Below, one piece after another: positions 21,401 through 64,000 of a DNA stretch of 64,000 nucleotides (its first letter is position 1; each line of letters opens with the position of its first letter). A model generated the notes under the pieces. It ran no database searches, was not told the origin of the DNA, and saw only the letters and a program-made list of their open reading frames with translations. The translations under genes were made by a program, and so were the position numbers. The stretch is from Datnioides undecimradiatus (Eukaryota > Chordata > Actinopteri > Lobotiformes > Datnioididae): positions 2,057,143-2,121,142 of the forward strand of contig WARS01001600.1 in assembly GCA_008933995.1 (NCBI GenBank). Reading direction: 5' to 3'.

Positions 21401-21593
21401 GATTATTCATGTAAAGGTTCAGATCATCAGAGACGTCTGTGCTTCCCTCCTGCAGGTTCTGTGGTAACGTGGCGCCACCAACAGTCAACACAAACAGCAG
21501 CACAGTGTGGGTCACCTTCCACTCTGACGGCAGCATCGCAGGCAGCGGCTTCACTGCACAGTACAGGGCCATACTGCCTGGACACAGTCAGTG

Positions 21594-21641
<48 letters not shown>

Positions 21642-23288
21642 CCTTGCACCATTTGCCCTCCTGAGCATCATGTATCCACTGTGTGTTGCCCCAGAGAGCT
21701 GCTCCAGAGACGAGTTTCTGTGTGACAGCGGTCGCTGCCTGCTCCCCGTGTCCGTGTGTGACGGTCATCCAAACTGCCGTGACCAATCAGACGAGGCGAA
21801 CTGCAGCCATAAACACAAAGGTGAGAGCACGTAGACAGAGTTCACCCTGGGCATTGTCTCGACCTAACCCTCATCCTTTCACAGAGTGCGGCGGGCAGAA
21901 AAGCGGGCCCCATGGCTTCCTGTCAAGTCCAAACCACCCCAGGCCTTACCCTCACCAGCAGGTACATGTTTAACTTTCCACACACACTCCACACACACTC
22001 CACACTGCCCGTTACAGGATGGCGAGGCTTTGTCACTAACATCATGTGGCTGTGTTTCCATCAGTTGTGCGTTTGGCATGTATCTGTTGAGGAGGGTCAC
22101 GTCGTCACGCTGAGCTTCAGGAACTTCAGCCTGGAGACTCAGGACGTGTGTGAGTTTGACTACGTGGAGGTGCACGACAGCGTCGACACTGGAGCAGGAA
22201 GAGTGCTGGGCAGGTGAGACGCTCCACCGGCCGGGATCTCAGCCACATGTTGGGGTCAAATGCACAACATGTGAAGCTCATGAGATCCTCTCCATCCTGT
22301 GTGTTGAGGCTGAAACAGGGTGAATGTGTGTCCCCCTGTCTCCCAGATGTATAACCCTGACGTGCTGAGGCCACTTTTGTCTCCTCCTCCTGTCTCAGGT
22401 TTTGTGGGACCACCCTCCCCCCCGACCTGACCTCCTCCGGCCCCCACATGACTGTGGTGTTTGTGGCTGATGAGGGAGTGGCCGACAGCGGCTTCAACGC
22501 CACGTACCAGGCTGTGTCTGTGCTGGACAGTGAGTTCTTGCTGTTACAGAACTACTGTTGCCTTTATCACCTCTCCTGCTTCTGATGTTTCCTTTCTCCT
22601 TCCTTCCTTCCTTTTTTACTTCCTGCTTCTTTTGTTCCTCTCCTTCCTTCAGGTCTTACCGCAGTTTGATCACCTTTCCTTTCTTCTCTGACCTACATTT
22701 ACTCTGCAGACACCACCATTTACTTTCTATTCACAGCACTTTCCCTCCTCAGCACTTTTGCTCCTCATGTTTTGTGTATTTCTATCATCCTCTCCTGTGT
22801 GTGTGTGTGTGTGTGTGTGTTGTTGTCTTTATTTAAAGGGACATGTGGTCCCGGCCAGTTCGCCTGCAGTACGGGGGAGTGTCTTCAGCAGCAGTGGTTG
22901 TGTGATGGATGGAGCGACTGCCCTGATGGAGCAGATGAACAGGGCTGTGGCAACTCCACCTACCCTCCCTTCAGTGAGTCCCTGTTATCTCTGACCCGGA
23001 TCAGGTTCCCAGGAGGGAGTCTGACCGGCTTTTGTTTCCCTGATGTGTCAGAGTTCCTGTTGTGTGTCAGAGGAAGTGAGGGCAGAATATGAGCGGTTTA
23101 GTCTCTCTGTGCCCTCAGCTTCATCGTGCGAGTTCATCGAGGTAGAGATGTGTCAGGGTCTCAGCTACAACCTCACCTCGTTCCCAAACATCTGGCTGTC
23201 CATCGCTGATCAGAGAGAAGCTGCCACGCTCCTGCGACAGTACCGGGTGAGAGCTGCCCTCGTGACTTCATGATACTAAAAGAACAAC

Positions 23289-23325
<37 letters not shown>

Positions 23326-23646
23326 GAGCATGAGCTGACTGCACATGCTTTCAACAACTGTACGGCTGTTTCCACTCAGACATTCATCCTCACGCTCCCT
23401 TCTCTCCGTTTTGCCATGCAGGTACTGATGGAGCTGGCGTGCTTCGAGCCCTTGCGGAGGCTGGTGTGCGGGATGTTTCTGCCCCAGTGCAGCCCTCAGG
23501 GGGGCGTCCTCCAGCCCTGCCGCTCGGTCTGCTCCTCCGCCGAGCAGCAGTGCAGCCAAGCCCTGGACCTCTTCTCCTTCAGCTGGCCCTTCAACTGCCA
23601 CCTGCTGCCCGACTCCGAGGACCCCGTGGAGTGCTCGCTGCCTTGA
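18471..23646 (+). CDS. mfrp: Membrane frizzled-related protein
   Basis: Thirteen exons join in frame to 596 codons: 18471-18524, 19108-19216, 19574-19711, 20363-20530, 20603-20822, 21456-21586, 21695-21820, 21885-21961, 22065-22213, 22399-22529, 22839-22973, 23119-23246, 23422-23646. The order matches MFRP: cytoplasmic N-terminus, one Ala/Leu-rich membrane segment (about 76-99, type II), a Thr/Pro/Ser stalk, CUB1 (from [10 protein letters not shown]), LDLa1 ([16 protein letters not shown]), CUB2 (from [10 protein letters not shown]), LDLa2 ([16 protein letters not shown]) and a C-terminal Frizzled cysteine-rich domain (from [17 protein letters not shown]). Length is close to human MFRP (579). 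MFRP is an eye protein of the retinal pigment epithelium and ciliary body needed for normal axial eye growth. In mammals it shares a transcript with C1QTNF5; here no C1q gene follows directly and nudt8 is convergent instead. Identity is firm. Confidence 0.96.
21597..21639 (+). repeat. (GT)n microsatellite in mfrp intron
   Basis: A perfect GT run of about 21 units lies between the exons at 21456-21586 and 21695-21820. Confidence 0.95.
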
Positions 23647-24301
23647 TTCAACAGTTTTAAGAGTCAGCTGTGATTTCACTGAGAGATGATCGAGTCCAGC
23701 CTCCGTCCACTCCATGTGTGAGGACTGACAGGCCTGCATTTCACAGAGCTGGGCACTGGGACTGGACTCTGAGCAGCATCCAGGAGTTGTATAAAGCAGC
23801 CTGACCAGTAGCGTTGCACACGCCTGCCTGTAAAGCCCCCGCAGGAAGGTTTTTAATGAAAAGCTTTAAAGTTTGTAAAGAGTTTGTGTGATTCAGATAC
23901 AAACGAATCAAAATGAAGGTTTTCGATCTCTTCAGTGGAAATCAAACTGTTAATTGTCTTTTTGCACTATTTATTGCTTTGTTGTCAATCATGTAAAAAC
24001 AGAAAAACCTTTAAAACAAACTTTATTGCATTGTTCATCAACACAACACAGCATGTGTCATTTCAGTGTTTTCAGTCCAGATTTGATCCAGTGGGACGTG
24101 AAACGGGCTCGAGTTGAGTCACACTGTGCGGCAGGGACTGTGTTAGAGTTGCGCTTCACTGAGCCCACATGTTAAAATCATTACAACACAACTCATACTG
24201 TAAAGGTTTCCTCGGTCAGTCACTGATTTAACTTGTTAAAATCTGTTTAGATGGCGGTACGCACGATTTAAAGCTGAATGAAAGAAGGATCTGTTTGCGC
24301 G

Positions 24302-26965: not shown

Positions 26966-27610
26966 CCGCGCAGCTTCAGGAGCGTCACTGCTGCCCTCAC
27001 TGCGCAGACACACGCGCAACTGTGTGACGCTTCCCTTCCCCTTCATTCACATTGCGAGGAAATAGAGTGACACAGCTTATGCACATTATTTACTGATGAA
27101 ATCATGCCCCCCCCCCCCCGTCTCCGTTTACATCAACAGTGATGTCATCAGAGGTGAAAAACCAGTCTCTGTCCTCATCGGAGGCAGCATCAATCAGGTC
27201 TGGACTGAAACACGCAGACCTAACATCAGAGTTTCAGATCATAAGGAGGCTCACATGACTGTCCTCAAAGTCTCAACCTCAAACGATTTTATCGTCATTT
27301 AGTTTTATTTTCTTATTTTAAGAAGCTGCATTATTTCTCATTCGACGAACTGAGAACCAGCTCTGACTGAAACTCCTCACCCCACCTGTTTTACCAGCCC
27401 CACCCAGGTCCCAGCCCGCCCCAGGTTTTAAGCAGCATGTGATTCATGTGAACTGGCATTTCAGCCTGGCCATCTCTGACTGTCTTTGCTGTGATTTCCC
27501 TGACTTGTCTGTGTTATTTTCACATCTGCGACCCACTCAAACAGGGATCCCTCTGGTTCTTCATCCAGTCTGACCCCTGTGAAATCCTTCATAGCCAAAG
27601 CCAGCACCAT
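26966..27610. other. nudt8 / TRIM divergent intergenic region
   Basis: A poly-C run of about 13 bases lies near 27107-27119. Otherwise the sequence is unremarkable and carries the presumed TRIM promoter. No extra exon is supported. Confidence 0.4.
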
Positions 27611-28418
27611 ATGGCCTCAGCCTGGTCTGAAGAGGAGACCTTTGCCTGCCCAGTATGCCTGGACACCTTGAAGGACCCGGCCACTCTACCCTGTGGACAC
27701 TCGTACTGCTTGGCATGTATCCAGAGCCACTGGGACAAGAAGGACAGCAAGGGTCAGTACAGCTGCCCCCAGTGTAGGCAGGTCTTCAGCCCTCGGCCCT
27801 CGCTGGCCAAGAGCACTCTGCTGGTGGAGGCCATGGAGAAACTGAGAACAAACAGCCTGAACCGAAGCTCCCCCTCAGCCAACTCCTCCGCCCCACCGTC
27901 CATGCCCGTCTACCTGGAGGTCCTGCCGGACACAGGGCCGCAACAGTGCAGCATATACCCCCAGCTTCCCACAGTGGACCCCAGACCCTGCCCTCAGCAC
28001 AAACGGCCCCTCGAGCTATTTTGCCATGAAGACAGGGAGTGTGTGTGTGAGGTGTGCTGCCAGCATGGACACAAGGGACATCGTGTGCTCAAACCCCAGG
28101 AGGAGAGGAGCGAGAGACAGGTGTGTGAGGCAAAAGACAAATATCTGCAGGGGTGTATGTATCTGTAGAGTTCCTTCTCTTGGTGTGTGACGTAATGTGC
28201 AGGTGAATCAAGATCTGTGTTTTCACAAGTGCAACTTTTCTGAAATGTAGCTGAACTAGAAGTACTTGTAAAACAACTGTTGTTACTGTGTATTCCTGCC
28301 TCAATGTGTGTGTGTTTTCTGGCTAAAACCTCACAAATGACTCACCACAAAGTGCAAGCAGCGGCCAGTCCTGCCCCAGAGTGTGTGTGTGCGGACTCTT
28401 TCCCATACTAAGCTATGG

Positions 28419-28455
<37 letters not shown>

Positions 28456-31400
28456 AAAGAGCTTGCTCAGATGCAGGTGGATGTGCAGAACAGAATCCAG
28501 GAGACAGAAAAGAAGCTAATTGAGGTCCCACATGTCGCTCGTCAACACAAGGTTGGTGGAAACCTTTGCACCGTCTCTGATGTTTGCAGCTCTTTGCACC
28601 TTTCTCCTCCCTGATCCTCCCTGAACCTCCTCCTCAGGCTTTGCTACAGGCTCTGCAGCGGGAGAGCACAGACTTATTCTCTGAGCTGGTCAAGACTATG
28701 AATCTAACGGGCACCGAGGTTGCTGAGCTCCTCAGCACCTACGAAACCACCTCAGGCAGCCAGGTTGAGGGGCAGATCCACAGACTGGAGCAGGAGGTGG
28801 CTCAGCTGCGCTGGAAGAGCGCAGAGCTGAGCAGGCTGGCCGACATGCAGGACCACATCTGCTTCCTGAAGGTACTCAGAGTGAGGCTGAGCGTTTCAGG
28901 AGATGACTTGTAAAGAATGAAGTTCAGCATGGATGGTTTCAGCTTTTCTGTTTTTAACTGTAAAACTTTGTGTCGTGAAGAATTTCTTCTCCATGGAGCC
29001 GCCGTGTCAGGCGGGAGCCACAGGAGAGTCAGTGACGAGTCAGGAGGAGGCGGTGGTAGTCGCCATCCGCTCCACCATAAAAGAGCTGCAAAAGGAAATA
29101 CAGGACCTCTGCAGAGCCAGCCAGGCCAAGATCATCACGTTAGGTCAGTGCAGTGCACCTCCTCTCCTCTCCTCTCCTCTCCTCTCCTCTCCTCTCCTCC
29201 TCAGTCAACTCGTCTCCTTTCCTCTGTAGTGAATCAGGACCCCAAGGCTCCTGCCACAGCCAGCGTTGCAGCAGGAGACACTGCAGCAGCTGATTCCAGC
29301 GCTCAGGCCAGGGATCACAACACAGGTACATTGAATTAAAATCTCCCAGTCTGACACAAACGTTTGTTTTGACGGTTAGTTTAAACTGGAGAGAGGAGGA
29401 AACCTGCAGATGAGTTTCTCACACCTCCTCTGCTCTTTGCCACAGTGTACGAGACGACCACAGACCCTCCACCTCTGCCACCTCCACGGCCTCAGGGTAA
29501 CTTTGGAAACTTCATATTTTATGATGTGTGTGGCTCATAAAACAAATGTTCTGAGGATGTTTACCTGTGACTGTTCCCCCTCACAGCGCACAATGAGTCT
29601 CCACCTTCACATCCTGGATCTTTTCAAGGTAAAAATCAAAAAGCCTGCAGCAGGTTTGCTGACGCTCGACGCCTGGAGTTAAGATTTCATTTGTTTCACC
29701 TGTTTTCTTTGTTTCCTCTCTCTGGACATGAAGCGTCAGCCCCCCCTCCGCCTGCCCCTCATCTGCAGCCTCAAGGTGAATACACAGGCTCTGGAGAACT
29801 GCCTGTAGACGTCAGTCAGTACATCACAGTGTAGCAGCAGGAGGTGTTGTGTTAAAGGCTTCTGATCCCTGATTTGATGTATTCATCTGTGTTGTTTAGC
29901 TCCACCTGCAACAACAACAGGACTCGCTAATCCAGATCCAAAGACAAGAGGAGAACTGCTGAAATGTGAGTCCTTCATACTCCACAATATGAGACAGAAT
30001 AAAGAGTAAAACAGTGTCAAACGCTCTCAGAGACTTCACTCTGCATCCTCTCACTTCAGTTTACTTCGAACCCACCATGGAGCCCAACACAGCGTATCGC
30101 CACGTGCAGCTGTCAGACGAAGGTCATAAGGCCACGTTGCGGGCAGAGAACCTGAACCCACCAGACCACCCTGATCGCTTTGACTACTGGAGACAGGTTC
30201 TCTGCAGAGAGCCTCTGGCAGGCAGCCCTTACTACTGGGAGATGGAGTGGACCGGCCAAAAGGTGAATCCTTACACATCACCGGGGAGATCCAGATGATC
30301 ATACATCATCATCTGGATGAGCTGTATGAACCCAGACCCCAGTCAGCTCAGATAAAAACTTTAGTAGTGGATACAAAACAGTTCTCTGCCACAGCAACAT
30401 CCCCCCTCTAACCTCGGGTACAAAAATGATTTTTGCAGAGTTTCTACAGAACACACCCAGGTTTAACAGAGAAACTTTCACATGATCTGCATTTTATGGC
30501 CCCGCACACTCAAAACGTTGCATTTCCTGCTGCAGGAGGTCACAGGTCATCATAGTTTACAGTACAGCGGTGTCACCAGTGTAATGCTGATTATGCATCA
30601 CATCATCTTCAAACAAGCCATTAAACATCAGCATTGCACAGCGATTATAAAATATAATTGCTTACCTGTTGATTAACTAAAGGGATAAACTTTGCTTTGC
30701 TTTGATCGACTGGTATCTGGTTCAGACTCTCGTGGTGATTTTGATTGTCTGACCTCCAGCGCCATCATGAGTGACAAAAATCATCACTGTCAAATTTCAA
30801 TTTGCCCAATCCTGAAAATATTACTTATGAATAAATACAAGCAAAAATAAAATCCCCATCAGCCTCAGCTGTAGCTAGCACGCTGGAAACACATGCTCCT
30901 CAACACATGCATATAAGCATCATTGCATTAGCATGCAGACATTACCCTTTAGCACAAAGGCCCTGCTCTACCTGCACAGAGCTGCCTGTAAACTCCTAGT
31001 CTTTCTGAATGAACACCAAACTTATTGAGCCCGATGTGTGAACCATTAAAGACCAGGGAAACGCTGTTGTTTGGCTGTTGGCTGACACCGTTTACCTGCC
31101 TTCACTGTCATTTTATCAGATGTGCTCCCTTGTTTTATCTGCTTTATCCTGTCTCACCTCGCAGTTCACCATCGGCGTGGCCTACAAGGAGATGGAGCGC
31201 AAAGGCTCTGATTACAAAAGCCGACTGGGCCACAACGCTCAGTCCTGGGTCTTGAACTGGTCCGGGACTGGCTTCTCCTTCTGGCACGATGGTCAGGAAA
31301 AGCAGCTGGGCTCACCAAAGGCCCGGCGGATTGGCGTCTATCTGGACCAGCATGCAGGGATTCTGGCCTTTTACCGAATCACCAACAAGCAGGCTTACCT

Positions 31401-31515
31401 CATCCACCGGCACCAGAGCCAGTTTGCTGGCCCGCTGTACCCAGGGTTTCGGTTCTGGACCGGAGTCGGCGCGACGGTGACCGTGCGTCCGTTGGATTCA
31501 GCTGTATATGAATGA
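27611..31515 (+). CDS. TRIM family E3 ubiquitin ligase (RING, B-box, coiled coil, PRY-SPRY)
   Basis: Eleven exons join in frame to 617 codons: 27611-28120, 28456-28551, 28638-28871, 28981-29143, 29230-29325, 29446-29496, 29587-29628, 29734-29775, 29900-29965, 30060-30262, 31165-31515. The RING (CPVCLDTL...CGHSYCLACI...CPQC) occupies residues 12-60 and the B-box (CPQHKRPLELFCHEDRECVCEVCC...HKGH) about 121-162. A coiled coil is encoded by the 96- and 234-nt exons typical of class C-IV TRIMs. PRY-SPRY spans about 434-617, with an LDP-like stretch (LDQHAGILAFYRI). Five small exons between coil and PRY-SPRY encode an Ala/Pro-rich linker ([25 protein letters not shown]). Such proteins ubiquitinate targets, often in antiviral signalling. 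The layout resembles TRIM25/bloodthirsty-like fish TRIMs; no orthologue is assigned. AATAAA is at 31633-31638. Confidence 0.92.
28423..28453 (+). repeat. (TG)n microsatellite abutting TRIM exon 2 acceptor
   Basis: A TG run continues directly into the TGCAG acceptor of the 96-nt exon and so replaces much of the usual polypyrimidine tract. Confidence 0.9.
29159..29199 (+). repeat. (CCTCT)n pentanucleotide repeat in TRIM intron 4
   Basis: About eight CTCTC/CCTCT units lie just after the donor at 29144. The tract is pure pyrimidine on the coding strand. Confidence 0.92.
30263..31164 (+). other. Last TRIM intron, no feature recognised
   Basis: This 902-base intron separates the PRY and SPRY exons. 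It is AT-richer than its surroundings, and no exon or clear repeat was identified. Confidence 0.5.
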
Positions 31516-32375
31516 CGGGCTGTTGTTTTGCTGCGTGTCTGTTTGGAAACATGCAGCACTGCAGAGAAACAGGGAACATGTGCCTTTCTGCACCTGTTAT
31601 TAATGTCAATTGTCTAAAAATGTCTGTGAGTTAATAAAAGAGCAGTAAACACACACGTCTTCTCTTTAAGTTTGTCAGTGTCCTGCAGTGGGATTATGGT
31701 AAAGCTGATATGTAAACGCACCTGAGTCTGTCTGATTTTATCTCCGCTGCCCACACCTCAGTGACCTGGATGCTTTATACTTCCATTATTCCAGTATTCC
31801 CACATGGATTTGGAAAGAACAGTTTGACCTTCTTGGGTCTTTTGTCCACCCGCTCCTTTCTGCTGACACAGCTAGTTGTTATTGATCGACTTCTGATTTG
31901 TGATGATCAGAAACGTATTCCCGCTCAGATTCTCACCTGTTCCTGTTTTGGAGGAGACTTTTCTTTCTTATTCCAAACAGTCGTGAGCGAAGCCTTGCTT
32001 TGTGCTCGTTAACTCAAGTAACTCAACACTATTCACAGGAAGACAATGAAACTCTCCCTTTACACGTGGTGCCAGTAGTTTCCTGTGTCCTGGTCTGATT
32101 GAAACTCAGAAACATATGGAGATCACCTGTCGGTCTGAGGCTGCATCGATCCAGGCTCAAACTGGAGATTATAATGATCTGCTGGTGTCGACAACAACAC
32201 GGCAACATGCAGCAGAGTGAAGCGAGTCAGTGTCACATCAGTGTACCACTCCTGTTGGGGCTGAAGTGAGCAAACCGCACAGGACGAGTTGATCAGTCGT
32301 TGATGTGCATTAATCATTGCACTGAGAGTTGATGAGAAAACTGAAGTACGTGGACAACTTCCCTCAGAGGACAGC
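31516..32375. other. TRIM 3'UTR and intergenic sequence
   Basis: TRIM polyadenylation (AATAAA 31633-31638) is followed by about 700 bases of non-coding sequence. No gene signature is seen. Confidence 0.45.
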
Positions 32376-32612
32376 TGATACCTGACCTACATGCACAACA
32401 CAAAGCCCTGGAGGGTGTGTGTGTGTGAGGGACTGACTGTAAAGCCCCGCACTCATAAAGAAAAGGTATATAATGTAGGTACACCTGAATACAGGTGTGG
32501 GGTAAACAGGGCCGGCTATAGGGGAAGCAGGGAGGAGCTACAAGAGCAGAAAGAACACGGCCGATGGGAAACATGTATATATAGAGGTGAGAGCTTGGAC
32601 CTGCATCAGTGT
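32376..32612 (+). promoter_or_regulatory. Promoter of C1q-like gene 1
   Basis: TGATACCTG lies at 32376-32384, preceded by ACAGC, 285 bases before the ATG. TATATATA is at 32576-32583, so a start near 32605-32615 is expected. The same order (TGATACCTG element, TG-rich stretch, purine-rich GGAGG block, TATA-like box, TCCTGAAGC before the ATG) recurs upstream of the two neighbouring paralogues. Conservation among copies is seen directly; the bound factor is unknown. Confidence 0.6.
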
Positions 32613-32660
32613 CTGTGTTCCTCTGTCCTCCTGAAGCCTTCATCAGCTGCCAGCATCACC

Positions 32661-35600
32661 ATGAGAGGTGAGACGGGATATGACTAGAAGGAGGCTGCAC
32701 TGTTTAATAAGCTGGGTCTTCCTGTTGACATGTTTGTTGAGATTTAAAGATGAATTTCCCAGTGATGACTGACTCTGGGTTCGGTGCTTCATGCCTTTGC
32801 TCCTCTTCTCCCAGCTCTCGTATTGCTGTGTCTGGTGGAAGCAGTGTTTGTCCAGGCTAATGATTACTCCTGGACCGGACCCGACTCAAACACAGACAGC
32901 GCAGGAGTCAATGCCAACACAGAGAACGGTGAGAGGTTTGGATGGAAATTCAATTCAATTCAATTTTAGGGGAGAGAGGACACAGAGTTAATGGAGTTTA
33001 AGGAGAGAGAGGGAAGAGGAGTGTGGAGACAGCAGCCTCGGCCTATAGCAGCATAACTAGGGGATGGCATGGATGGTGTAGTTCACATGGTAACTAGAGC
33101 TAGCTGTAAGCTTTGTTGAACAAGAAGGTTTTAAGTTTTACTTTAAAGGTATAGAGGGTGTCTGCCTCTCGGACCCAGACTGGCAGCTGGTTCCACAGGA
33201 GAGGAGCCTGATAGCTAAAGGCTCGGCCTCCCATTCTACTTTTGGAGATTCTGGGAACCACAAGCAAACCTGCACTCTGGGAGCGAAGTGATCTGTTGGG
33301 TTGATAGGGACGTAGCATCTCATTGAGGTACAATGGAGCTTGGCCATTAAGGGCCTTGTAGGTAAGAAGAAGGACTTTAAAATCTATTCTGGACTTTACA
33401 GGGAGCCAATGAAGAGAAGCTAAGACCGGAGAAATGTGATCTCTCTTGCTAATTCCCACCAGAACCCTCACTGCAGCGTTTTGGATGAGCTGGAGGCCTC
33501 GCAGTGAGCTAGTCGGACAACCTGACAACAAGGAATTACAATAGTCCAGCCTTGAGGTAACAAATGCGTGGACTAGCTTTTCGGCATCACTTTGGGACAG
33601 GATACTCCTAATCTTAGCTATGTTGCGCAAGTGAAAGAAGGCAGTCCTAGTGACCTGCCTAATATGGGGCTGATAGGACATATCCTGGTCAAATATGACT
33701 CCCAGGTTCCTCACGGTAGAACTGGAGGCCAGGGTAACACCATCCAAAGCGACTGCGAAGTCAGATAACCTGTCTCTGAGGCGTTTAGGCCCAAACAAAA
33801 TCACTTCAGTTTTGTCTGTATTTAGAAGCAGAAAATTATAAGTCATCCAGGCCTTAATGTCTGTCAGACATGTCTGAAGTCTGACTAGTTGATCTGTTTC
33901 TTCTGGCTTCATAGATAAATATAGCTGTGTATCGTCCGCGTAGCAGTGGAAATTTATGTTGTGCTTCCTAATAATATTGCCTAGGGGAAGCATGTATAGG
34001 GAGAACAACAATGGTCCAAGCACAGAACCCTGTGGAACTCCATGATTAACCTTTGTGTGCATGGACGAGTAGTTATTAACATGGACAAACTGGAATCTGT
34101 CGGATAGATAAGATTTAAACCAGCTTAGTGCTGTTCCTTTAATGCCAATGACATGTTCCAGTCTCTGTAGTAGGATATTGTGATCGATGGTGTCAAATGC
34201 AGCACTGAGGTCCAGCAGGACAAGTAAAGAGACGAGGCCATTGTCAGAAGCTATTAGGAGGTCGTTGCTAACCTTAACCAATGCTGTTTCTGTGCTGTGA
34301 TTTATTCTAAATCCTGACTGAAATGCTTCAGATAAACTGCTCCTCTGCAGGTGATCACATAACTGATCAGCCACAGCCTTTTCAAGGATTTTAGAAATAA
34401 AGGGGAGGTTGGATATTGGTCTGTAGTGCGCTAAAACACCAGGGTCAAGAGAAGGCTTTTTGAGTAGAGGTTTGATGACAGCAACCTTAAAAGCCTGTGG
34501 AACATAACCTGTTAGTAATGACAGATTGATCTGGTCTAATATAGAAGTGCCAATCAGGGGCAAAACATCTTTGAGAAGATGAGTTGGGATGGGGTCCACA
34601 AGACAGGTTGAGGGTTTGGATCTAATGATTGTTGAGGACAGTTCAGTGAGATCTATAGGAGAGAAGTGGTCCAGAGATAAATTAGGGCCTGCAGACATTT
34701 CAGGGGCTGCTGCAGATGACACACATGGATCTCTAACAGTTGAAGAGAGTGCGTAATGAATCCTTTCTCTAATATCTTTGATTTTACTAGTAAAGAAATT
34801 CATAAAGTCATTGCTGCTGAGAGCTGAGGGAATAGTTGGCTCAACAGAGCTGTGACTCTTTGTCAGCCTGGATACAGTGCTGAACAGAAACCTGGGGTTA
34901 TTCTTATTTTCCTCTATTAATTTGGAATAATAGGCAGTTCTTGCCTCACGCAGGGCTGATTTGTATGTTATAATACTATCTTTCCAGGAAAGGTGAAATT
35001 CTTCTATATTAGTGGATCGCCACTTCCTCTCTAACCTTCGTGAGGACTGTCTTAAAGTGCGTAACTGTGTGTCAAACCAGGGAGCTAGCTTCCTCTGCTT
35101 GATGGCTTTCTTATTCTGTTTTATAGGGGCCACATTGTTCAGTGCTGTGTGCAGTGTAGCTGCAGTATTATCAACAAGATAATCTATATGTGCTGGACTA
35201 GTAGTTAGGCTGCTACCCTCTGCTGTAATGGCACATGGCATAGAAGCCCAAAGAGATGGAATAACTTCCTTAAATTTGGAAACAGCATTATCAGAAAGAC
35301 ACCGACTGTAGGTAGTCTCCCTGCCAAATGCTGAGAAGTTCATAATTGTGAACTGAAATGTTATTAAAAAATGGTCAGATAAAAGAGGGTTCTGGGGAAA
35401 CACTATTAAATGTTCAGTTTCTGAGCCATATGTCAAATGAGTCTAAAGAGGGGGTCAATGTGTCTGCATGCATGCTCATCTGCAGCCTGCTATGTTTCTG
35501 TGTGTGTGTGTCCAGTGTGTCTCACGGACCAGGCATCGTGTGGCTGCTGCCTGATGCAGCAGCAGATACACAGGATGAAGATGTTCTTCAACATGAGCCT

Positions 35601-36204
35601 CAACGAGCTGGAGAAGGAGCTGATGAAGACAAAGACCATCCTCAACAACGTCAGAGGTGAGACAAAGTGACGAAAACCAGAAGAAGAACGCTTCTGAACA
35701 TCTGTCATGTGCCCCATCGAGGAGCTTCTCCCAGTGCTTCATGTGTTTCTCCTCCACTCTGCTCCTCCAGCCAGCCGCAGCGCCTTCTCTGTGGCTCTAA
35801 CCAGCGATGACAACCTGAAATGCTTTGGCCCTTTCCGCGACGACAAACTCATCCCATACAAACACGTCTTCATCAACCTGGGTGACGGCTACAACCCAGA
35901 GACCGGTATCTTCACCGTCCCCCGCTCTGGCGTCTACAGCCTCGCCCTCACCGTCTACAGTGACGCCGGTTCTCCCGGTAACACCCTGGCCGCCTGCGCC
36001 AGCCTGCAGGTTAACGACCAGATGCTGGCCAGGCCCAGCGAGAAAAACATGGAAGATCAAGAGGACAGCGCCACTATTGTGGTGGCCGTCCACCTGATGG
36101 CTGGAGACAAGGTGTCTGTCAACCTGCCCATCGGATGCTTCCTCTGCGACGACAGCAGCCACTACAACACGTTCACTGGGTTCCTGCTGTATGCTACTGA
36201 CTAA
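32661..36204 (+). CDS. Secreted C1q-domain protein, cluster gene 1
   Basis: Four exons close to 231 residues: 32661-32667, 32815-32928, 35516-35656, 35771-36204. Exon 1 contributes only ATGAGAG. A signal peptide ([17 protein letters not shown]) precedes the mature start NDYSWTGPD. Exon 3 gives a cysteine-rich helical stalk ([19 protein letters not shown]) with an NMS glycosylation site. Exon 4 holds the whole C1q head (from [10 protein letters not shown] to [16 protein letters not shown]). There is no Gly-X-Y collagen. C1q heads of this sort form trimers, as in cerebellins and C1q/TNF-related proteins; the ligand here is unknown. Intron 2 is inflated to 2.6 kb by an antisense LINE. AATAAA is at 36498-36503. 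It closely resembles genes 2 and 3 downstream. No orthologue symbol is claimed. Confidence 0.9.
32947..35445 (-). mobile_element. L2/CR1-type LINE, 5'-truncated, antisense in intron 2 of C1q-like gene 1
   Basis: An uninterrupted minus-strand frame of 778 codons (33100-35436) begins inside the end of the endonuclease domain (SDHFLITF). It covers a full reverse transcriptase: [44 protein letters not shown] and the catalytic YADD at residue 499 (33931-33942). It runs on to a conserved C-terminal tail ([10 protein letters not shown]). A stop codon lies a few codons upstream of the frame, and the 5' part with the rest of the endonuclease is missing, so the copy is dead on arrival. The 3' end is a short tandem AATTC/AATTG tail at 32947-32966, typical of CR1/L2-like elements. 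An intact frame suggests a fairly recent insertion. Confidence 0.9.
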
Positions 36205-36745
36205 GTTAGAGAGGCGTAGCTGCTCCGGGACTCTCGTCCCGCTGACGAGGTTTGAGTCTGAAATGTAAAATGTTCCTGTGGTGACAGCTGCTGATCCATA
36301 TCTGCTCATGTTCACATGTGAGATTATTTCTAATGTGTGAAGCTTCTTCAGACATTAGGAATGACTCTGTGACTTCTGCTTCCTGTGTCCTCACACAGCC
36401 TGAGCATCTTCGTTCTTACAGCTGTCAATCTGTCACCACTGTTTTATGTGATTGAAATTGTGAAATATGATGGATACACGTGTTAAAATGACAAGTTAAT
36501 AAACCAGGAGTTTGAACAAAGCTGTAGCACGATGCCGTTTTTTGTTTTAATCTCTGCAAACTGAGCAGTGACCTGCTGCGACGCTGACAGACTCAAGTTC
36601 AGGTTGATCTGACTCCTGTCTCAGACGCAGACCTGCAGACACACTCTGATGGGTTAAATGTGACAACGGTCGCTGGCGAACATCTGTCAGACTGAACCAA
36701 ACCTGTTTTTAACGAAGACCTTTGGTAATGAACCGTGTTCTGCAG
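36205..36745. other. C1q-like gene 1 3'UTR and downstream spacer
   Basis: The 3'UTR ends near the AATAAA at 36498. The remaining 240 bases show no feature apart from the acceptor before the orphan exon at 36746. Confidence 0.5.
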
Positions 36746-37656
36746 CTGCTCCGTGAGCTCTCTCAGCATGAAGTGGAGGATGACATTGTGCAGGTAAAGA
36801 GCATCGTTCCTGACTCTTCCTGCTCAGAGCTGGACCTCCCTCTGTCACAGGAATAACATATAAAAATATTCATAGCTATGCACCCATGTTGCATTTATAT
36901 GAATTGGTCTTGTTCAAACTCAAACTTGTTCACCTTTTCGATGTAGAGCTGCAGTTCTGTCACCACGATTATCACTGTAAGCACGTCAGGTGTGTTTGTA
37001 GCTGTAAGGCTAAATGTGATTCTCTTGCAGGTGGCAGCAGAAGAGAGGAGAGCAGCACAGCGACAGACCGTGGAGCAGCAGGTCAAGAGGAGGAGGAGGA
37101 GGAGCAGGTTCAGGAGGAGGAGCAGGTTCAGGAGGAGGAGGAGCAGGTTCAGGAGGAGGAGGAGCAGGTTCAGGAGGAGAAGACCTGACGACCTCCACTG
37201 CTGCACAGCGGCTCACAGCTGATGAGTAAGAACAAACACCTCACTGTAGCCAAACCGAGTTAGACCGGGCTAATTAACAATCACTGCCTTTGTTTGTCAG
37301 GTCTTCCTGTTTCAGCTTTACTGTTTGGCCATGATTAGACTGAGACCATTATGTAATCTGCCTGTGTGCTGTTTCAATATATTTATAACATATTTTTTCA
37401 TTTTGTAATATTGTGCAATCATTCATGGTGCCCAGAGGAGGAACCTGCCCTTTTCTCACCCCAAGAACATTGAGATTTGTGTTTTATCAGATAATATAGA
37501 AGATAAGATAAGGTAAGATAAGATAAGATGAGATGCTGTGGAAACATGATGACATCGTCATTCTCCGCATGTTATCAGGCTGCAGACGCAGCAAACAGGA
37601 TGAGCCAGTTCCTCGTCTCTGCAGCCACAGAGATGCAAGACCAGCTGAGCTGCAAG
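36746..37656 (+). pseudogene. Three orphan in-phase mini-exons, coiled-coil-like, unidentified
   Basis: Three segments are each bounded by AG and GT and are all multiples of three: 36746-36793 (48 nt, LLRELSQHEVEDDIVQ), 37031-37081 (51 nt, VAAEERRAAQRQTVEQQ) and 37579-37656 (78 nt, starting AADAANRMSQFLVSAA). Joined, they make a charged helical stretch of 59 residues without stops. No start exon or 3' exon was found on either side. They may be the remains of a coiled-coil gene or part of an unrecognised one. I do not recognise the family. A minisatellite directly follows the second donor. Confidence 0.35.
37086..37180 (+). repeat. GAG-rich minisatellite with CAGGTTCAG units
   Basis: Four or so copies of a (GAG)n-CAGGTTCAG unit of 18-24 bases lie in tandem. 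The repeat is open in two frames (Gln/Glu-rich and Arg-rich), which is a by-product of its composition. Each unit contains a donor-like CAG|GTTCAG. Confidence 0.85.
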
Positions 37657-37870
37657 GTGCCTCCTGAAAGCCGGTGGACACAGACTCCTGCCTCTTTGTG
37701 TGAGCCAGAAGAACATAAATGTAGTCTGTGTTCACCTCTGCACGTGTCCCTGCTCATCCCGCACTCTCACAACTCTCCAGGTAACTTCAACACTGCAGCT
37801 GCATGAAACATGATGCAGGACTGCCCATGATAAAACTCCACATTCAGAACACCTCATCTCAGGTGACAGG

Positions 37871-38110
37871 TGATACCTGGGTGGCATCAACAACAACAAC
37901 AGCAAAGGCTGGCAGGGTGTGTGCGTGTGTGTCTGCTTGTGTGTGATTTTCAGAAAATGAGAGCCCCTAGTGATGAAGAGACACATCTCCAGTTATGAAG
38001 TTATAAAGGCAAACAGGGCAGACAATAAAAACAGCGAGGAGGAGCGTTGTCAGAGGAGGAGGAATAAAAATGAGAGGCGGCCAGGGAGGAGCCCGCAGAA
38101 ATATATATAT
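37871..38110 (+). promoter_or_regulatory. Promoter of C1q-like gene 2
   Basis: TGATACCTG at 37871-37879 lies 313 bases before the ATG. TGTGATTTTCAGAAA at 37942-37956 is shared almost exactly with gene 3. AACAATAAAAACA-type and GGAGGAGCG blocks follow, and ATATATATAT at 38101-38110 runs into TCCACCAC. The arrangement parallels genes 1 and 3. Confidence 0.6.
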
Positions 38111-38183
38111 CCACCACCTTTGTCTCATGATCAGTCTGCAAGCCTCCATCCTTCTGAAGCCGTCGTCATCCATCAGCATCAGC

Positions 38184-39391
38184 ATGAGAGGTGAGACGAG
38201 GTGCAACTGCAGGGCATCAGGTTCAGGCGAGAGGGCAGAAGTAAAGGAGGTAGATCAGGTTAGACATGTCAGAGCGAGGGCGGCTGATTAACGATTAGTG
38301 ATACTGATCAGATAGCATCAGATTAACATTTTCTAATGAAACAAGAAAGTTTTGTGCAACTTGTTTCACTGAAAGTCTTTTTGTTGAAGCATATGTTTGT
38401 GTCAAAATGAGGAAAAGGACAAACGGCAGAAGTTCAGAGTCTTTCCTGGTTTTACGGCTACTTGCCCTGGTTTCCCCCCCACAGCTATCGCACTGCTGTG
38501 TCTGCTGCACGCAGCCTCTGGTCAGAACGGGTGGGGTGACGTCTCATGGAATAAACAAACATTTTCTTGGCTGGGACCTAACACCGCGAGTCCACCCCCC
38601 GTCACAGAGCAAACTCAAAACAGCGGTGAGAGCGATCGCCCAGCCCGTCCCTCCTGTAAATACACCGTCTGCGCATCTTCAGCTTAACGTATCAATGTGT
38701 GTGTCCGCAGTGTGTCTGAAGGACGAGGCGGCGTGCGGCTGCTGCCTGATGCACAGACAGATGAACAGGATGGAGCGGTTCTTCAACATCACCCATGGAG
38801 AAATAGACAAGGAGCTGACGAAAGTGAAGAGGACCTTGGATGATCTGAGAGGTGAGCGACACACAGACAGCACCCAGGCACTGCTGAGCATCATCTGAGT
38901 GCCTGAAGGACTGAACTGATCCACCAGCACTGACCCGTTTCTTCTTCTCTGCTCTCCCAGCCAGCCGCAGCGCCTTCTCTGTCTCGCTGAACAATGAGAA
39001 TCGTTTGGGCTGCCTCGGCCCCCTCAGCAGCAACCAGGTCATCGTGTACAAGCACGTCTTCATCAACCTGGGAGGCGGCTACAACCTTCAAACCGGTATC
39101 TTCACCGTCCCCCGCTCTGGCGTCTACAGCCTCTCCGTCACCATCTACGCCACTGGTTCTTCTAACGGCACCATGGTCAGCTGTGCCAACCTGCAGGTTA
39201 ACAGCCAGGTGCTGTCGGAGCTCCTGGAAAAAGATGGCCAGGACGTTGAAGACAGCGCCACCGTTGTTTTGGCTATGACGCTGAAGGCCGGGGACCAGGT
39301 GTCCGTCAACCTGCCCAAGGGATGTGTCATCTGTGACCACAACAGCCACTATAACACCTTCACTGGCTTCCTGCTCTACGCTACTGACTAA
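38184..39391 (+). CDS. Secreted C1q-domain protein, cluster gene 2
   Basis: Four exons close to 239 residues: 38184-38190, 38485-38625, 38711-38851, 38961-39391. The signal peptide is MRAIALLCLLHAASG. The mature N-terminus holds SWLGP, matching the SWxGP of genes 1 and 3. The 141-nt stalk exon has the same length in all three genes and reads AACGCCLMHRQMNRMERFF, with an NIT glycosylation site. The C1q head is in one exon and ends [14 protein letters not shown]; relative to genes 1 and 3 it is one codon shorter. The paired CFGPF and CDDSS of genes 1 and 3 are CLGPL and CDHNS here. AATAAA is at 39700-39705. It is a tandem duplicate of its neighbours with independent promoter and poly(A) signals. 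Confidence 0.92.
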
Positions 39392-40268
39392 GGCTCTGTG
39401 CCAACTGTTGTCCTGACAGGTGCTGAGTCTGTTAGTCTGTTTCCATGGCGACAGTCATGACATGTAGCCTCTAATCTCTGTCTGATCAGTTGTACAATCA
39501 TCCATCCCAACACAGTGCTGTCCCCAGTTATCAATATTACCTTTTTAATTGTCAGTCCACCTTAAGAAAACACCTGTGCTGTCTCTCCCTGTCTCACTGT
39601 CTGAGTGTGTTGGTTGTAACAGCTGTCGGCCGTGAAACGCTGAAATGACTTGATGTAAATTTTGATAGAAAGTTGAATTTTAAACAACTCACCTGAGAAA
39701 ATAAACAGACCTGTAAACGAACCGGTTGGTGTCTGAGTTGCTTCGTTTCAGCCTCCATTGACGACCCTGAAGTCACAGTCGGCAGTACAGAAGCTGCACG
39801 ATCACTAATAAAACTCACATTTTAGGATCAACGGAGGTTTGACTTCTCTCAACCACATTATAAAATACTTTACTGAATCCCTGAAGCGACAGTTTTAATT
39901 CCCCTGAGTCACATAAACACTGAAGGTAGTTCGAACTGAAACAGGCGCTGTATCTCCAGACAAAACATACGTGTTGTACCTGTGCACACACACACTGTGT
40001 CTGTGATGAAAGCAGTGAGGCAACGGTGTGAGAGCGAGCGTGAGGTCAGATTAGGTTTCAACCTGTTATTGGGCCATTTTGAACAAACTATCCTGATTAT
40101 TTGAGACGAAGACAGGACCTGATTCCCCAAACAGTGACGGCGAGCAGCCAGCTGCGCAGACCATAGGTCTGCTGTGGTTTTCTGCGTGTCAAGAGAAAGT
40201 GATGAGCACAAGATATGAAAATCATTTGACAGAGCTCCTGAGACAGAGCCCTCGATCCAGACGACAGA
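39392..40268. other. C1q-like gene 2 3'UTR and spacer
   Basis: The 3'UTR ends near 39705. The rest is non-coding with no recognised element up to the gene 3 promoter. Confidence 0.45.
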
Positions 40269-40520
40269 TGATACCTGGCCTGCAACCACACACATAAAGG
40301 CCTGTGTGTGTGTGTGTGTGTGCGTGTGTGTGTGTGTGTGTGCGTGTGTGTGTGCACGCGCGCTCGGGTGTGATTTCAGAAAGTGGGAGCAGCTGGCGAT
40401 AACAATAAAACATGGCAGGGTATAACGGGGCAATGGGGCAGTCGATTAAACAAACATAAATAAGGAGGAGCGACGGCAGCAGAGGAGGAGCTCAGGCATA
40501 AACTTATATCCACAACACTT
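40269..40520 (+). promoter_or_regulatory. Promoter of C1q-like gene 3
   Basis: TGATACCTG at 40269-40277 lies 313 bases before the ATG, the same spacing as gene 2. A long TG repeat (about 40303-40355) follows, then TGTGATTTCAGAAA at 40369-40382, AACAATAAAACA, a GGAGGAGCG block, and ATAAACTTATAT near 40497-40509 followed by CCACAACAC. Confidence 0.6.
40303..40355 (+). repeat. (TG)n microsatellite within the gene 3 promoter
   Basis: TG repeats interrupted by TGCG steps lie between the TGATACCTG element and the TATA-like box. Shorter TG-rich stretches occupy the same place in genes 1 and 2. Confidence 0.9.
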
Positions 40521-40581
40521 CCTCCATCATCAGTCCATCACACCCTGCGTACTCCTGAAGCTGCCATTGTTAGGCGCCAAC

Positions 40582-41525
40582 ATGAGAGGTGAGACTTCAG
40601 ACTTTATCTGAGAGGTGGCAGCACCTGTGCGAAGCCCCCGCCGGCTTCACTGCCTCACGCCTCTGCTCTGTTCCTGCAGCTGTAGTTCTGCTGTGTCTGC
40701 TGCACGCTGCCTTTGGTCAGACTGAGTACTCCTGGAACGGACCGGGCCACACGCCATCGAGTTCAGACACAGGTAGTGGTGAGGAATCCTGGGTAAACGA
40801 TGCGTGTGTGTGCATGTGCTCTCACCTGCGAGTGCGTTGATGTGTGTCTGTGCTCAGCGTGTCAGGCGGACCAGGGCTCCTGCGGCTGCTGCCTGATGGT
40901 GCGCGAGGTGCAGAGGATGAGGACGTTCTTCACCACCAGCCTGAATAACCTGGAGAAGGAATATCTGAAAACCAACCAGACGCTCAGCAACATCGAAGGT
41001 GAGCACGCCATGACATGACCGACGCACTCGCTCTTCTCTTTGCAGCGTACCTTTCACACCATTACCTGTTGTGTCCCCTCTGCACCTCCAGCCAGCCGCA
41101 CCGCCTTCTCCATGGCTCTGTTCAGTGAGGATCGCTTTAAGTGTTTCGGCCCCTTCTCTTTCAACACCATCATCCCCTACAAATACGTCTTCCTTAATCT
41201 GGGTAACAGCTACAACCCAAACACCGGTGTCTTCACTGTGCCCCACTCTGGTGTCTACAGCCTCGCCGTCACCGTCTACAGTGACGCTGGAGCTTCTACA
41301 AACCTCCTGAGGGCCTGCGCCAGCCTGCAGGTTAACGGCCAGCTGATGGCCGGGACCTCAGACCAAAACATGCATGACCAGGAGGACAGCTCCTCTATGG
41401 TCATGGCCATCCACCTGAAGGCTGGAGACCTGGTGTCTGTCAACCTGTCGCCTGGATGCTTCCTCTGCGACGACAGCAGCCACTACAACACGTTCAGCGG
41501 TTTCCTGCTGTATACTACAGAATAA
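40582..41525 (+). CDS. Secreted C1q-domain protein, cluster gene 3
   Basis: Four exons close to 224 residues: 40582-40588, 40680-40772, 40858-40998, 41092-41525. A second in-phase donor six bases on (40778) would add two residues. The signal peptide is MRAVVLLCLLHAAFG and the mature start QTEYSWNGPG. The stalk reads GSCGCCLMVREVQRMRTFF with an NQT site. The C1q head (from ASRTAFSMAL) ends SSHYNTFSGFLLYTTE and matches gene 1 more closely than gene 2 (CFGPF and CFLCDDSS both kept). No collagen is present. AATAAA at 41987-41992 is the likely poly(A) signal. It is a tandem paralogue with the same exon phases as genes 1 and 2. Confidence 0.92.
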
Positions 41526-42934: not shown

Positions 42935-42970
42935 ACACAAAGCACCTGATACCTCCTGGCCTCAATCTGG
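42935..42970 (+). promoter_or_regulatory. Orphan copy of the C1q-cluster promoter element
   Basis: CACCTGATACCTCCTGGCCT contains TGATACCT (42947-42954) followed by CCTGGCCT, resembling TGATACCTGGCCTG of gene 3. No matching ATGAGAG exon, stalk or C1q head follows in the next 2 kb. It may be the remains of a lost fourth copy or a chance match. Confidence 0.3.
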
Positions 42971-45088: not shown

Positions 45089-45850
45089 ATGGTTGTAATA
45101 CCGGTCCTGTTCCTGCTGGGGTCGCTGTTTCCCTGCAGTCACGTGGAGGCTCAGTCCTCCACCGTAGAGCTGCTGAAACAGACTGCGCGTAAGCCTCACA
45201 CACATCAACACCTGCACACACAGGTGCTTCTTAAACCTTAACTCAGGTAAAGTGATGAGAGCAGACTCCATGTTGAACCCGCCCCTCCCACCCCTCTGTC
45301 CCCCTCCCCTCTCTGTCCCGTCTCACCCCTCCATCCTGTTTCAGTGCAATGGAAAGGAGATCTCACCTGTGAAAAGTGGGACTGCAACTGCACCTACACC
45401 CGGCAGCGTGGCTGCTGCTGTGCAGCCAACGAAATGTACAAAGTAGAGGACGACACCTTCTTAAGGATCGAGAACTTGCGGCACAGCATCAGCTCACTGA
45501 ACAGCAGAGTGCAGGATCTCACAGGTGAACAGCGATGGGCCGTAGGTTTAGTCTAACAGGTCTGTCACACACACACAAAGATGAGACATCCTGTGGACAC
45601 TTGGTTTCACTGCACCTCTCTCCCTCTCCCTCTCTCTCTCTCTCTCTGTCTCTCTCTCCCTCTGTCTCTCCCTCTCTCTCTCTCAGGTGCTGTCAGGGTT
45701 GCCTTCAAAGCCAACATGAACTCAAACATCGCCGTCCTGATTCCAGGAACCACTGAGCGCTGCTTTGGTCCTTTCAATGCCAACGTGCCAATCCCCTACA
45801 CCACTATCACGCTCAACCAAGGGGGAGGATACAACCCCTCCTTGGGTAGG

Positions 45851-45887
<37 letters not shown>

Positions 45888-46251
45888 CCTGTACACCAAT
45901 GCAGGTGCACTGACTCCTCCCCTCCCTCTGCAGGTGTGTTCACTGCCCCCACTCCTGGGGTTTACTCCTTCTCCTGCACAGTCTACTCGTACGTGGGAAA
46001 GAACGAGCGCATCTACCACAAAGTAAACAAACCGGATGGACATGACAAACATCTGATTTGAGGAAACGTTTACCCAGAGCAACAGGAAGTGACGCGAGTG
46101 TTTTGTTGCATCTGCAGGTGCAGCTGATGAAGAATGGGCAGGTGGTGGCCAGCGTGTGGGAGAACAATCGAGAGGACGGTGAAGACAGCGCCACTCAGGT
46201 ACGAACTCAAACCAGTCTCGTGATTTAACATCAAGTAACATCTGACGTTTG

Positions 46252-46285
<34 letters not shown>

Positions 46286-46434
46286 GCCGCTGTGTTTGCC
46301 TCCAGGTTGTGATGCTGGAGATGAAGAGAGGCGACCAGGTCTTCATGGAGCTGATGTCTGGGAGGAAGCTCTGTAACAACGTGGAGTACAACATCTTTAC
46401 CGGTTACATGGTGTACCCCCACATCAACAAGTAA
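45089..46434 (+). CDS. Secreted C1q-domain protein, cluster gene 4 (divergent, multi-exon C1q head)
   Basis: Six coding exons close to 245 residues: 45089-45188, 45345-45524, 45687-45845, 45934-46022, 46118-46198, 46306-46434. The ATG follows its acceptor directly; a non-coding first exon probably ends at 44354 (AAACA|gtaagt). A signal peptide (MVVIPVLFLLGSLFPCSHVEA) is followed by LQWKGDLTCEKWDCNC and GCCCAANEM, a Cys-rich stalk and a short coil (LRHSISSLNSRVQDL). The C1q head runs from AVRVAFKANM to YNIFTGYMVYP. Unlike genes 1-3, four exons make up the head, and the promoter lacks the TGATACCTG element. It has no collagen. It is thus a more distant relative or an independent member of the C1q superfamily. 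AATAAA is at 46705-46710. Confidence 0.9.
45617..45685 (+). repeat. (CT)n/(TCTC) pyrimidine tract before an acceptor
   Basis: A long CT-rich low-complexity run serves as the polypyrimidine tract of the exon starting at 45687. It is a mirror-like pyrimidine stretch. Confidence 0.88.
45849..45887 (+). repeat. (CA)n microsatellite in C1q-like gene 4 intron
   Basis: About 19 CA units lie just downstream of the donor at 45846. Confidence 0.95.
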
Positions 46435-51800: not shown

Positions 51801-52678
51801 CATAAGCCCCTCTCTTGCCCCCACCCCACCCTGTCCACTCCTGGATTTGACCTTTAACATGTGAACTTTGAACCTCCCCAGGGACAGGAAGTTGAAGTGA
51901 CCTGACATCAAGATGGCAACAAAGGTTGGACGGTGCAGACAGCACCTTGATATGGGTTTTGCACTTGGCTGTCGGCCCGAAGGCATTACAGAAGCATCAG
52001 GCATCAGCAAAGAGCTGGCTGTGAAACATGTGTTGACAGAGGCCAGGAGGGAGAGCGAGTGTCTGTGTGTCTGTGTGTCTTTGTGTGTGTGTAGGTGTAT
52101 CAGCTGGCTGACATGGTGCTCCCATTGGACACCACTTTGCCCCTGATGCTGGTCCTGACGGGGTTAAATGGTGTGCACTCGGAGACACGTCGCTGTTAAT
52201 GCCACTGTTGTGGGAGAGGTGTTTAAAGCCTTTACGCTTTCATAGCTTCACACGCTTTTGACCTGCATGTCCTGTTTGTTCTGGTGTATGTCCTGTACAG
52301 TACATATGGAGGGTTAAGTGTGTGTTGGGTCAATGTGCATGTTTGTGCATACAGGCTACATCCAAATACCACTGCAATGTGAATGTTAGCTATTGTCTGT
52401 ATCAGCTGTGACGACCCACTGTGGACTAGAGGTGGTGATACTGCCACGAGAAGAAAACAGGAAGTGCATCAAATCCAGATGTTGTCATGAATGAACAGCT
52501 GCTGCTGGAGGAGGGATCCATTGACGACTGCTCCACAGATCCAAACCCTCCATTTGACTCCTCTCTTACTTCATTTTACATCTCCGCCTCCTCACCCCAT
52601 CTCCATACTCACCCGTCTCCCCCACTGTTTCCTCTTTTATCCCCCCCCCCTTCTCTCCCCCATTCCCTGCTCACCTCA
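48883..52678 (+). other. tagln intron 1
   Basis: This 3.8 kb intron contains no supported coding exon; the frames within it lack family signatures. It ends in a C-rich pyrimidine tract (52590-52675) before the acceptor near 52678. Confidence 0.5.
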
Positions 52679-52688
52679 GGGAGTCGGC

Positions 52689-53616
<928 letters not shown>

Positions 53617-63710: not shown

Positions 63711-64000
<290 letters not shown>

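Follow-up and report, generated by a model that had tools for sequence, protein, structure and literature searches.

The stretch of Datnioides undecimradiatus DNA analysed here (64,000 nucleotides (nt) of contig WARS01001600.1, assembly GCA_008933995.1; hereafter the window) carries a trio of C1q-like genes, genes 1, 2 and 3, whose upstream stretches resemble one another and share a nearly invariant 15-nt block. The three genes are adjacent on one strand, follow one exon plan and are mutually closest among the C1q genes of the window, as is typical of tandem duplicates. In the gene models this plan comprises four coding exons, separated by GT-AG introns of identical phases, in a fixed order: 7 coding bases (ATGAGAG), a hydrophobic leader exon, a Cys-rich exon and a single unsplit C1q-domain exon. 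The models are as follows:

32661..36204, + strand: gene 1, C1q-like, 231 amino acids (aa); GT-AG splice model, open reading frame; C1q profile PF00386, E-value (E) 3e-15
32661-32667, 32815-32928, 35516-35656, 35771-36204, + strand: coding exons of gene 1
38184..39391, + strand: gene 2, C1q-like, 239 aa; splice model; PF00386, E 1.1e-16
38184-38190, 38485-38625, 38711-38851, 38961-39391, + strand: coding exons of gene 2
40582..41525, + strand: gene 3, C1q-like, 226 aa; splice model; PF00386, E 1.2e-16
40582-40588, 40680-40778, 40858-40998, 41092-41525, + strand: coding exons of gene 3

Protein identity within the trio is 57% (genes 1 and 2), 63% (genes 1 and 3) and 52% (genes 2 and 3), figures that stay the same when the fourth C1q gene of the window is excluded from the count, and the NG86 synonymous distances (dS), which serve as our scale throughout, are 0.70, 0.47 and 0.67 for the same pairs. 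YN00 estimates over the whole gene, obtained for two of the pairs, exceed NG86 in both: 0.775 for genes 1 and 3 and 2.24 for genes 2 and 3. GC content at third codon positions is 74-76%.

Shared upstream words and the extent of the duplicated unit

A first-pass annotation of this DNA had noticed the word TGATACCTG 285, 313 and 313 bases before the ATGs of genes 1, 2 and 3, and a string search confirmed this: on both strands of the window there are exactly 3 exact matches, at 32376, 37871 and 40269. With one mismatch allowed, the word occurs 21 times against 17.65 (standard deviation (sd) 3.6) expected by chance, and therefore proves little by itself; this count is what speaks for the view that the shared words arose by chance and were merely singled out by eye. 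That view is contradicted both by the alignment controls given below and by the rarity of such sharing: TGATACCTG is the sole non-simple 9-mer common to all three 345-bp upstream stretches, and any such common 9-mer turned up in only 1 of 400 random triples of window stretches. We hence regard chance as an explanation with next to no probability. The conserved block around TGATACCTG is in fact longer than nine bases, extending over GACAGNTGATACCTG, in which 14 of 15 columns are identical in the trio. A literature text search for the letter string of TGATACCTG returned, among the matches listed, no title concerning these genes.

The other words that had been reported upstream fared variously. 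A TG-rich tract precedes each gene, the GGAGGAGC block is identical in 8 of 8 columns, and TGTGATTT(T)CAGAAA is present in genes 2 and 3. A TATA-like box is evident in genes 1 and 2, but that of gene 3 is weak (TTATAT, which does not match TATAWAW). Likewise, the word TCCTGAAGC near the start stands unaltered in genes 1 and 3, but gene 2 reads TTCTGAAGC, so that the three-way word shrinks to CTGAAGC. All three genes also have ATCAGT, an initiator-like word that lies 29, 28 and 25 bases past the T that opens the TATA-like box in genes 1, 2 and 3 and is presumed, from its sequence and position, to mark the transcription start site. The identical runs of at least five columns, five in total, comprise TGATACCTG with its neighbour GACAG, GGAGGAGC, ATCAGT and CTGAAGC. 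The sequence ATGAGAG, described earlier as a 7-nt coding exon, is found in all three genes, and the junction ATGAGAG/GTGAGAC between exon and splice site is identical in 14 of 15 columns; but no micro-exon is needed, and these bases probably close, as its coding part, a first exon of unremarkable size (63, 61 and 60 nt in genes 1, 2 and 3), lengths that follow from placing the transcription start at ATCAGT. The upstream features, with the TG-rich tracts masked in the upstream and flank local alignments, are:

32370..32384, + strand: distal block of gene 1, GACAGCTGATACCTG, 14/15 columns identical in all three genes
37865..37879, + strand: distal block of gene 2, GACAGGTGATACCTG, 14/15 columns identical in all three genes
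40263..40277, + strand: distal block of gene 3, GACAGATGATACCTG, 14/15 columns identical in all three genes
32413..32428, + strand: TG-rich tract of gene 1
37917..37945, + strand: TG-rich tract of gene 2
40298..40362, + strand: TG-rich tract of gene 3
37942..37956, + strand: TGTGATTTTCAGAAA, common to genes 2 and 3 only (gene 2 copy)
40369..40382, + strand: TGTGATTTCAGAAA, common to genes 2 and 3 only (gene 3 copy)
32531..32538, + strand: GGAGGAGC of gene 1, run of 8 identical columns
38038..38045, + strand: GGAGGAGC of gene 2, run of 8 identical columns
40464..40471, + strand: GGAGGAGC of gene 3, run of 8 identical columns
32576..32583, + strand: TATA box of gene 1, TATATATA
38102..38110, + strand: TATA-like box of gene 2
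40504..40509, + strand: weak TATA-like TTATAT of gene 3
32605..32610, + strand: ATCAGT of gene 1, putative initiator, 6 identical columns, 29 bases after the TATA box
38130..38135, + strand: ATCAGT of gene 2, putative initiator, 28 bases after the TATA-like box
40529..40534, + strand: ATCAGT of gene 3, putative initiator, 25 bases after the TATA-like box
32631..32637, + strand: CTGAAGC of gene 1, in the presumed 5' untranslated region
38154..38160, + strand: CTGAAGC of gene 2, preceded by TT, not TC
40555..40561, + strand: CTGAAGC of gene 3

In masked local alignment of positions -420 to -1, the number of control pairs, out of 200, that attained the observed score was 0 for genes 1 and 2, 10 for genes 1 and 3 and 0 for genes 2 and 3; thus, the outcome named beforehand as counter-evidence, an upstream likeness that stays at the random level once TG repeats are set aside, did not occur. 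Between -1000 and -421 the scores were reached by 23, 42 and 86 of the 200 control pairs, so no upstream homology was detected past -421 by this comparison. On the 3' side, the first ~300 bp of flank gave scores reached by 0, 0 and 1 of 200 control pairs, and the signal fades beyond (31, 83 and 33 of 200). The visible duplicated unit therefore extends from about -350 to about +300, which, along with the common four-exon plan, bears out the earlier claim that promoter and gene were duplicated as a whole.

Possible promoter constraint, neutral decay and exchange between copies

The degree of upstream likeness was gauged with several yardsticks. A 435-bp whole-stretch alignment made with MAFFT was judged to misplace parts of gene 3 and was replaced by segment-wise alignment between hand-set anchors; the anchors are the shared words themselves, a bias that favours upstream identity and so works against a neutral reading. 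Three of the four upstream segments yield 88 of 212 columns identical in all three genes, and the fourth, from GGAGGAGC to the TATA-like box, which is excluded from that count, yields 15 of 35 ungapped columns. Introns 1 and 3 reach 43/166 (26%; p 0.0016 against the 88/212), intron 2 being left out because of an insertion in gene 1, and one spacer stretch reaches 19/74 (26%; p 0.018); without the 15-nt block the upstream count is 74/197, still above the introns (p 0.018), although indels degrade introns as a yardstick. Random triples of window stretches have a mean three-way identity of 0.20 (sd 0.06). Since upstream identity exceeds that of introns 1 and 3 and of the spacer stretch, constraint on the promoters is likely, if mild, and concentrated in GACAGNTGATACCTG, the clear local excess being confined to this one 15-nt block. 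In 5000 column shuffles the identical columns proved clustered there beyond chance (p 0.0004 for 14/15, 0.004 for the run of 9, 0.008 for 17/25), and neutral simulation at the measured NG86 dS gave probabilities of 0.011 for 14/15 and 0.08 for the run of 9.

Several observations weigh against such constraint. Over all ungapped upstream columns the identity is 113/282 (40%), against a neutral 43% (sd 2.6) simulated from NG86 dS, and it lies below that of four-fold coding sites (28/48; p 0.038), a yardstick that may be inflated by the codon bias suggested by the high third-position GC content. The 88/212 count omits one segment and comes from segments cut at the shared words; the five runs of at least five identical columns are but a weak excess over the 2.3 (sd 1.5) expected; the highest random triple, 1 of at least 150, attained 0.41 three-way identity; and intron 3 of genes 1 and 2, with an alignment z of 4.2, falls within the range of the upstream stretches (2.2-5.9). 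The block statistics, too, depend on branch length: with branches scaled by 0.7 the probability of 14/15 is 0.15 and that of a run of 9 is 0.47, and with a scale of 1.3 these become 0/3000 and 0.014. The neutral expectation for the whole stretch shifts in parallel, to 54% at 0.7 and 34% at 1.3 times the branch length, and, as YN00 gives longer branches, the NG86 yardstick is a soft one.

A straightforward interpretation of these figures would be that the upstream likeness is purely decayed homology free of functional constraint. This would account for the closeness of 40% to 43% and for the comparable identity over the 100 bases of 3' flank nearest the genes (28/71), but it leaves the lower conservation of introns 1 and 3, of the spacer stretch and of the later 3' flank (45/167) unexplained, as it does the clustering of the 14/15 block; we deem it rather improbable. 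The opposite interpretation, offered by the first-pass annotation, was that non-coding conservation on this scale suggests selection to express the three genes together, which keeps their promoters alike. In its favour one may count the same excess over introns and spacer, the near-invariance of one 15-nt block at a similar distance from each ATG, and the prospect that, if the true dS exceeded NG86, as in the YN00 values, the upstream identity would surpass the neutral level. As argued, the inference is not supported: the upstream identity matches the neutral level given by NG86 dS and falls below that of four-fold sites, genes 1 and 3 are the least alike upstream in sum despite having the closest fourth exons, and a common ancestral promoter would also explain the shared elements. 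Hence, we consider selection for co-expression unlikely, and co-expression of the trio itself is a hypothesis only.

The relationships among the copies differ between promoter and gene body. By full-length protein, by exon 4 (0.80) and by the initial 100 bases of 3' flank, the closest pair is genes 1 and 3, which a bootstrap tree of the C1q domains (200 replicates, with the fourth C1q gene of the window as outgroup) joins with moderate support of 84%. Upstream they are the least alike, both in site patterns and in identity summed over segments (0.53-0.58 under three gap settings). The informative sites shared by genes 1 and 2, 1 and 3, and 2 and 3 number 48, 28 and 62 upstream and 77, 112 and 44 in the coding sequence (chi-square p 5e-9; p 3e-4 against third positions only). 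This mismatch could reflect either unequal rates or exchange between the copies. Gene conversion or ectopic recombination, by which parts of the copies were swapped and promoter and gene body acquired different histories, would be favoured by these site patterns, by the agreement in sum of three stiffer pairwise alignments and by a 42-nt stretch in exon 4 that is identical in genes 1 and 2. But run tests in exon 4, where that stretch had raised the suspicion of conversion, were not significant (p 0.13, 0.07 and 0.31), and the upstream ranking depends on the alignment: a gap-tolerant one ranks genes 1 and 3 highest (0.79 over 203 sites for genes 1 and 3, 0.77 over 242 for genes 2 and 3, 0.72 over 261 for genes 1 and 2), and the first whole-stretch MAFFT alignment leaves genes 1 and 3 (0.560) level with genes 2 and 3 (0.558). 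Moreover, all three gap settings make genes 1 and 3 the most similar pair between GGAGGAGC and the TATA-like box, coding exon 3 links gene 1 equally to gene 2 and to gene 3 (25 and 25 sites), and 300 bases of 3' flank give a higher score for genes 1 and 2 (292) than for genes 1 and 3 (253). As there are just three copies and no outgroup for the upstream stretch, unequal rates fit equally well, and we view exchange as doubtful.

Within the 15-nt block all three genes have CANNTG, its centre variable, followed by TACCTG, which we take, by consensus strings, to be an E-box and a ZEB/SNAI-type site; RYAAAYA, presumably a FOX-type site, lies upstream in all three genes, at -159 in gene 1, -175 in gene 2 and -132 and -126 in gene 3. 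The STAT, C/EBP, NF-kB and IRF consensus strings that were scanned for had no match in any of the three 345-bp stretches. On balance, we hold it probable that the trio arose by tandem duplication of a compact unit whose promoters have stayed recognisable through descent together with constraint on the core promoter and the distal 15-nt element. The ancestral unit would have had a promoter of ~300 bp of the TATA/initiator type and a gene with three introns, a short exon at its start and the C1q domain within a single exon; two tandem duplications would have followed, so far back that NG86 synonymous distances have since grown to 0.5-0.7. The likeness of the promoters would then stem partly from common descent and partly from constraint on the core promoter and the one distal element, whose likely role, judged by its motifs, would be to bind an E-box or ZEB/SNAI-type factor, with the proposed FOX-type sites acting closer to the start. 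A bolder combination, in which GACAGNTGATACCTG is a lineage-specific bipartite element (E-box plus TACCTG) kept ~290-320 bases before the ATG while the remaining promoter drifted, and in which promoters were swapped among the copies independently of the gene bodies, strikes us as decidedly improbable. Under the tandem duplication with mild constraint favoured above, the trio illustrates a limit to reading upstream likeness among tandem paralogues: for most of it common descent suffices, with one short element standing out as a concrete target. Should that element prove conserved in orthologues, the trio would form a small natural series on the separate divergence of promoters and gene bodies.

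Predicted products and known C1q-like proteins

All three proteins match the C1q profile with 57-61.6 bits against a curated cut-off of 23.7. Exon 4 of gene 1, the one gene modelled, gave a structure model of mean predicted local distance difference test score (pLDDT) only 62, from an input alignment of 3 sequences; it nonetheless adopts the jelly-roll fold and matches C1q-domain structures including those of C1QL3, caprin-2 and adiponectin (best E 1.5e-9, template modelling score 0.75). By eye each protein comprises a hydrophobic leader, a short Cys-rich segment (CGCC) and the C1q head, and no collagen-like Gly-X-Y stretch was seen before the head in the three translations. Because of this combination of leader, Cys-rich segment and head, the products are probably secreted oligomers.

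In this arrangement of leader and head they resemble teleost plasma C1q-like proteins, a likeness in described features: rainbow trout C1q-LP3 is described as a 256-aa, ~26-kDa protein with a leader peptide and a C-terminal C1q/TNF domain, which in non-reducing gels runs as a trimer and as larger multimers, given there as data not shown (PMC10623068). Precerebellin-like protein is introduced elsewhere as a known acute-phase protein with regional C1q similarity (PMC7579410). As for the trio, its upstream stretches are free of matches to the STAT, C/EBP, NF-kB and IRF strings used, and this consensus-string scan therefore gives no sign of acute-phase control. The cerebellin/C1QL family has the C1q domain in common with the trio: PDB sequence matches of gene 1 are led by cerebellin-1 and C1QL3 and fold matches of its model by C1QL3, at a low identity of 19-29% among the 50 fold matches listed. 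This likeness comes from the searches with gene 1 and does not imply orthology, and, as seen by eye, the trio has no collagen stretch. The complement subunits C1QA, C1QB and C1QC differ from it in having collagen-like Gly-X-Y repeats before the head. Tandem multiplication is likewise common to the trio and the C1qDC clusters of bivalves, for which 476 oyster genes are reported, arisen by tandem duplication in a process still ongoing (PMC6835236), as against three copies here that are old by dS. Thus, the trio is real but ordinary in kind, tandem C1q expansion being of an already known type. A scan of viral contigs with the gene 1 protein matched a pattern in 11 stretches, none of them a relative.

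Other features of the window

Two further features bear on the trio:

45089..46434, + strand: fourth C1q gene, six coding exons (model), C1q domain split by introns; outgroup
33103..35442, - strand: reverse transcriptase reading frame of 780 aa (~2.3 kb) in intron 2 of gene 1; RVT_1 PF00078, E 1.5e-36

The fourth C1q gene has 38-41% identity to the trio in the head and carries a CNCTYTRQRGCCC segment, and its exon plan differs from theirs. The idea that it carries the same promoter as the trio was dropped, since the 2.6 kb leading up to its ATG aligned with the upstream stretches of the trio only at the level of controls (of 150 controls, 80, 121 and 113 reached the score); TGATACCTC at 42947, on the way to this gene, was taken as a chance match. 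Intron 2 is 2587 bp long in gene 1 versus 85 bp in gene 2 and 79 bp in gene 3, so the retroelement insertion is absent from the latter two. Beside the element, near 32950, lies a short repeat of the AATTC type, and no target-site duplication of at least 7 bases was found between the two stretches compared. A 21-base GAG-rich repeat array, possibly part of an unrelated exon, occupies 37087-37179 (+ strand) between genes 1 and 2.

Upstream of the trio, reading frames with RING, B-box and SPRY domains at 27452-31515 (+ strand) constitute a TRIM-type gene, and those at 20149-24000 (+ strand) comprise a CUB domain along with LDLa- and frizzled-like frames, the latter two recognised by eye, which we take to be MFRP-like. 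Complement factor B/C2-like frames (sushi, vWA and protease) were recognised by eye at 11656-16842 (- strand), the one fragment scanned having no Pfam match, and a transgelin-like frame, also by eye and a fragment free of Pfam matches, at 52491-52913 (+ strand). A Subtilase fragment identified by Pfam at 58900-59292 (- strand) is presumably proprotein-convertase-like; a second candidate fragment of this kind at 61312-61641 had no Pfam match. The window closes with 143 perfect, uninterrupted copies of the dinucleotide AT (63715-64000).

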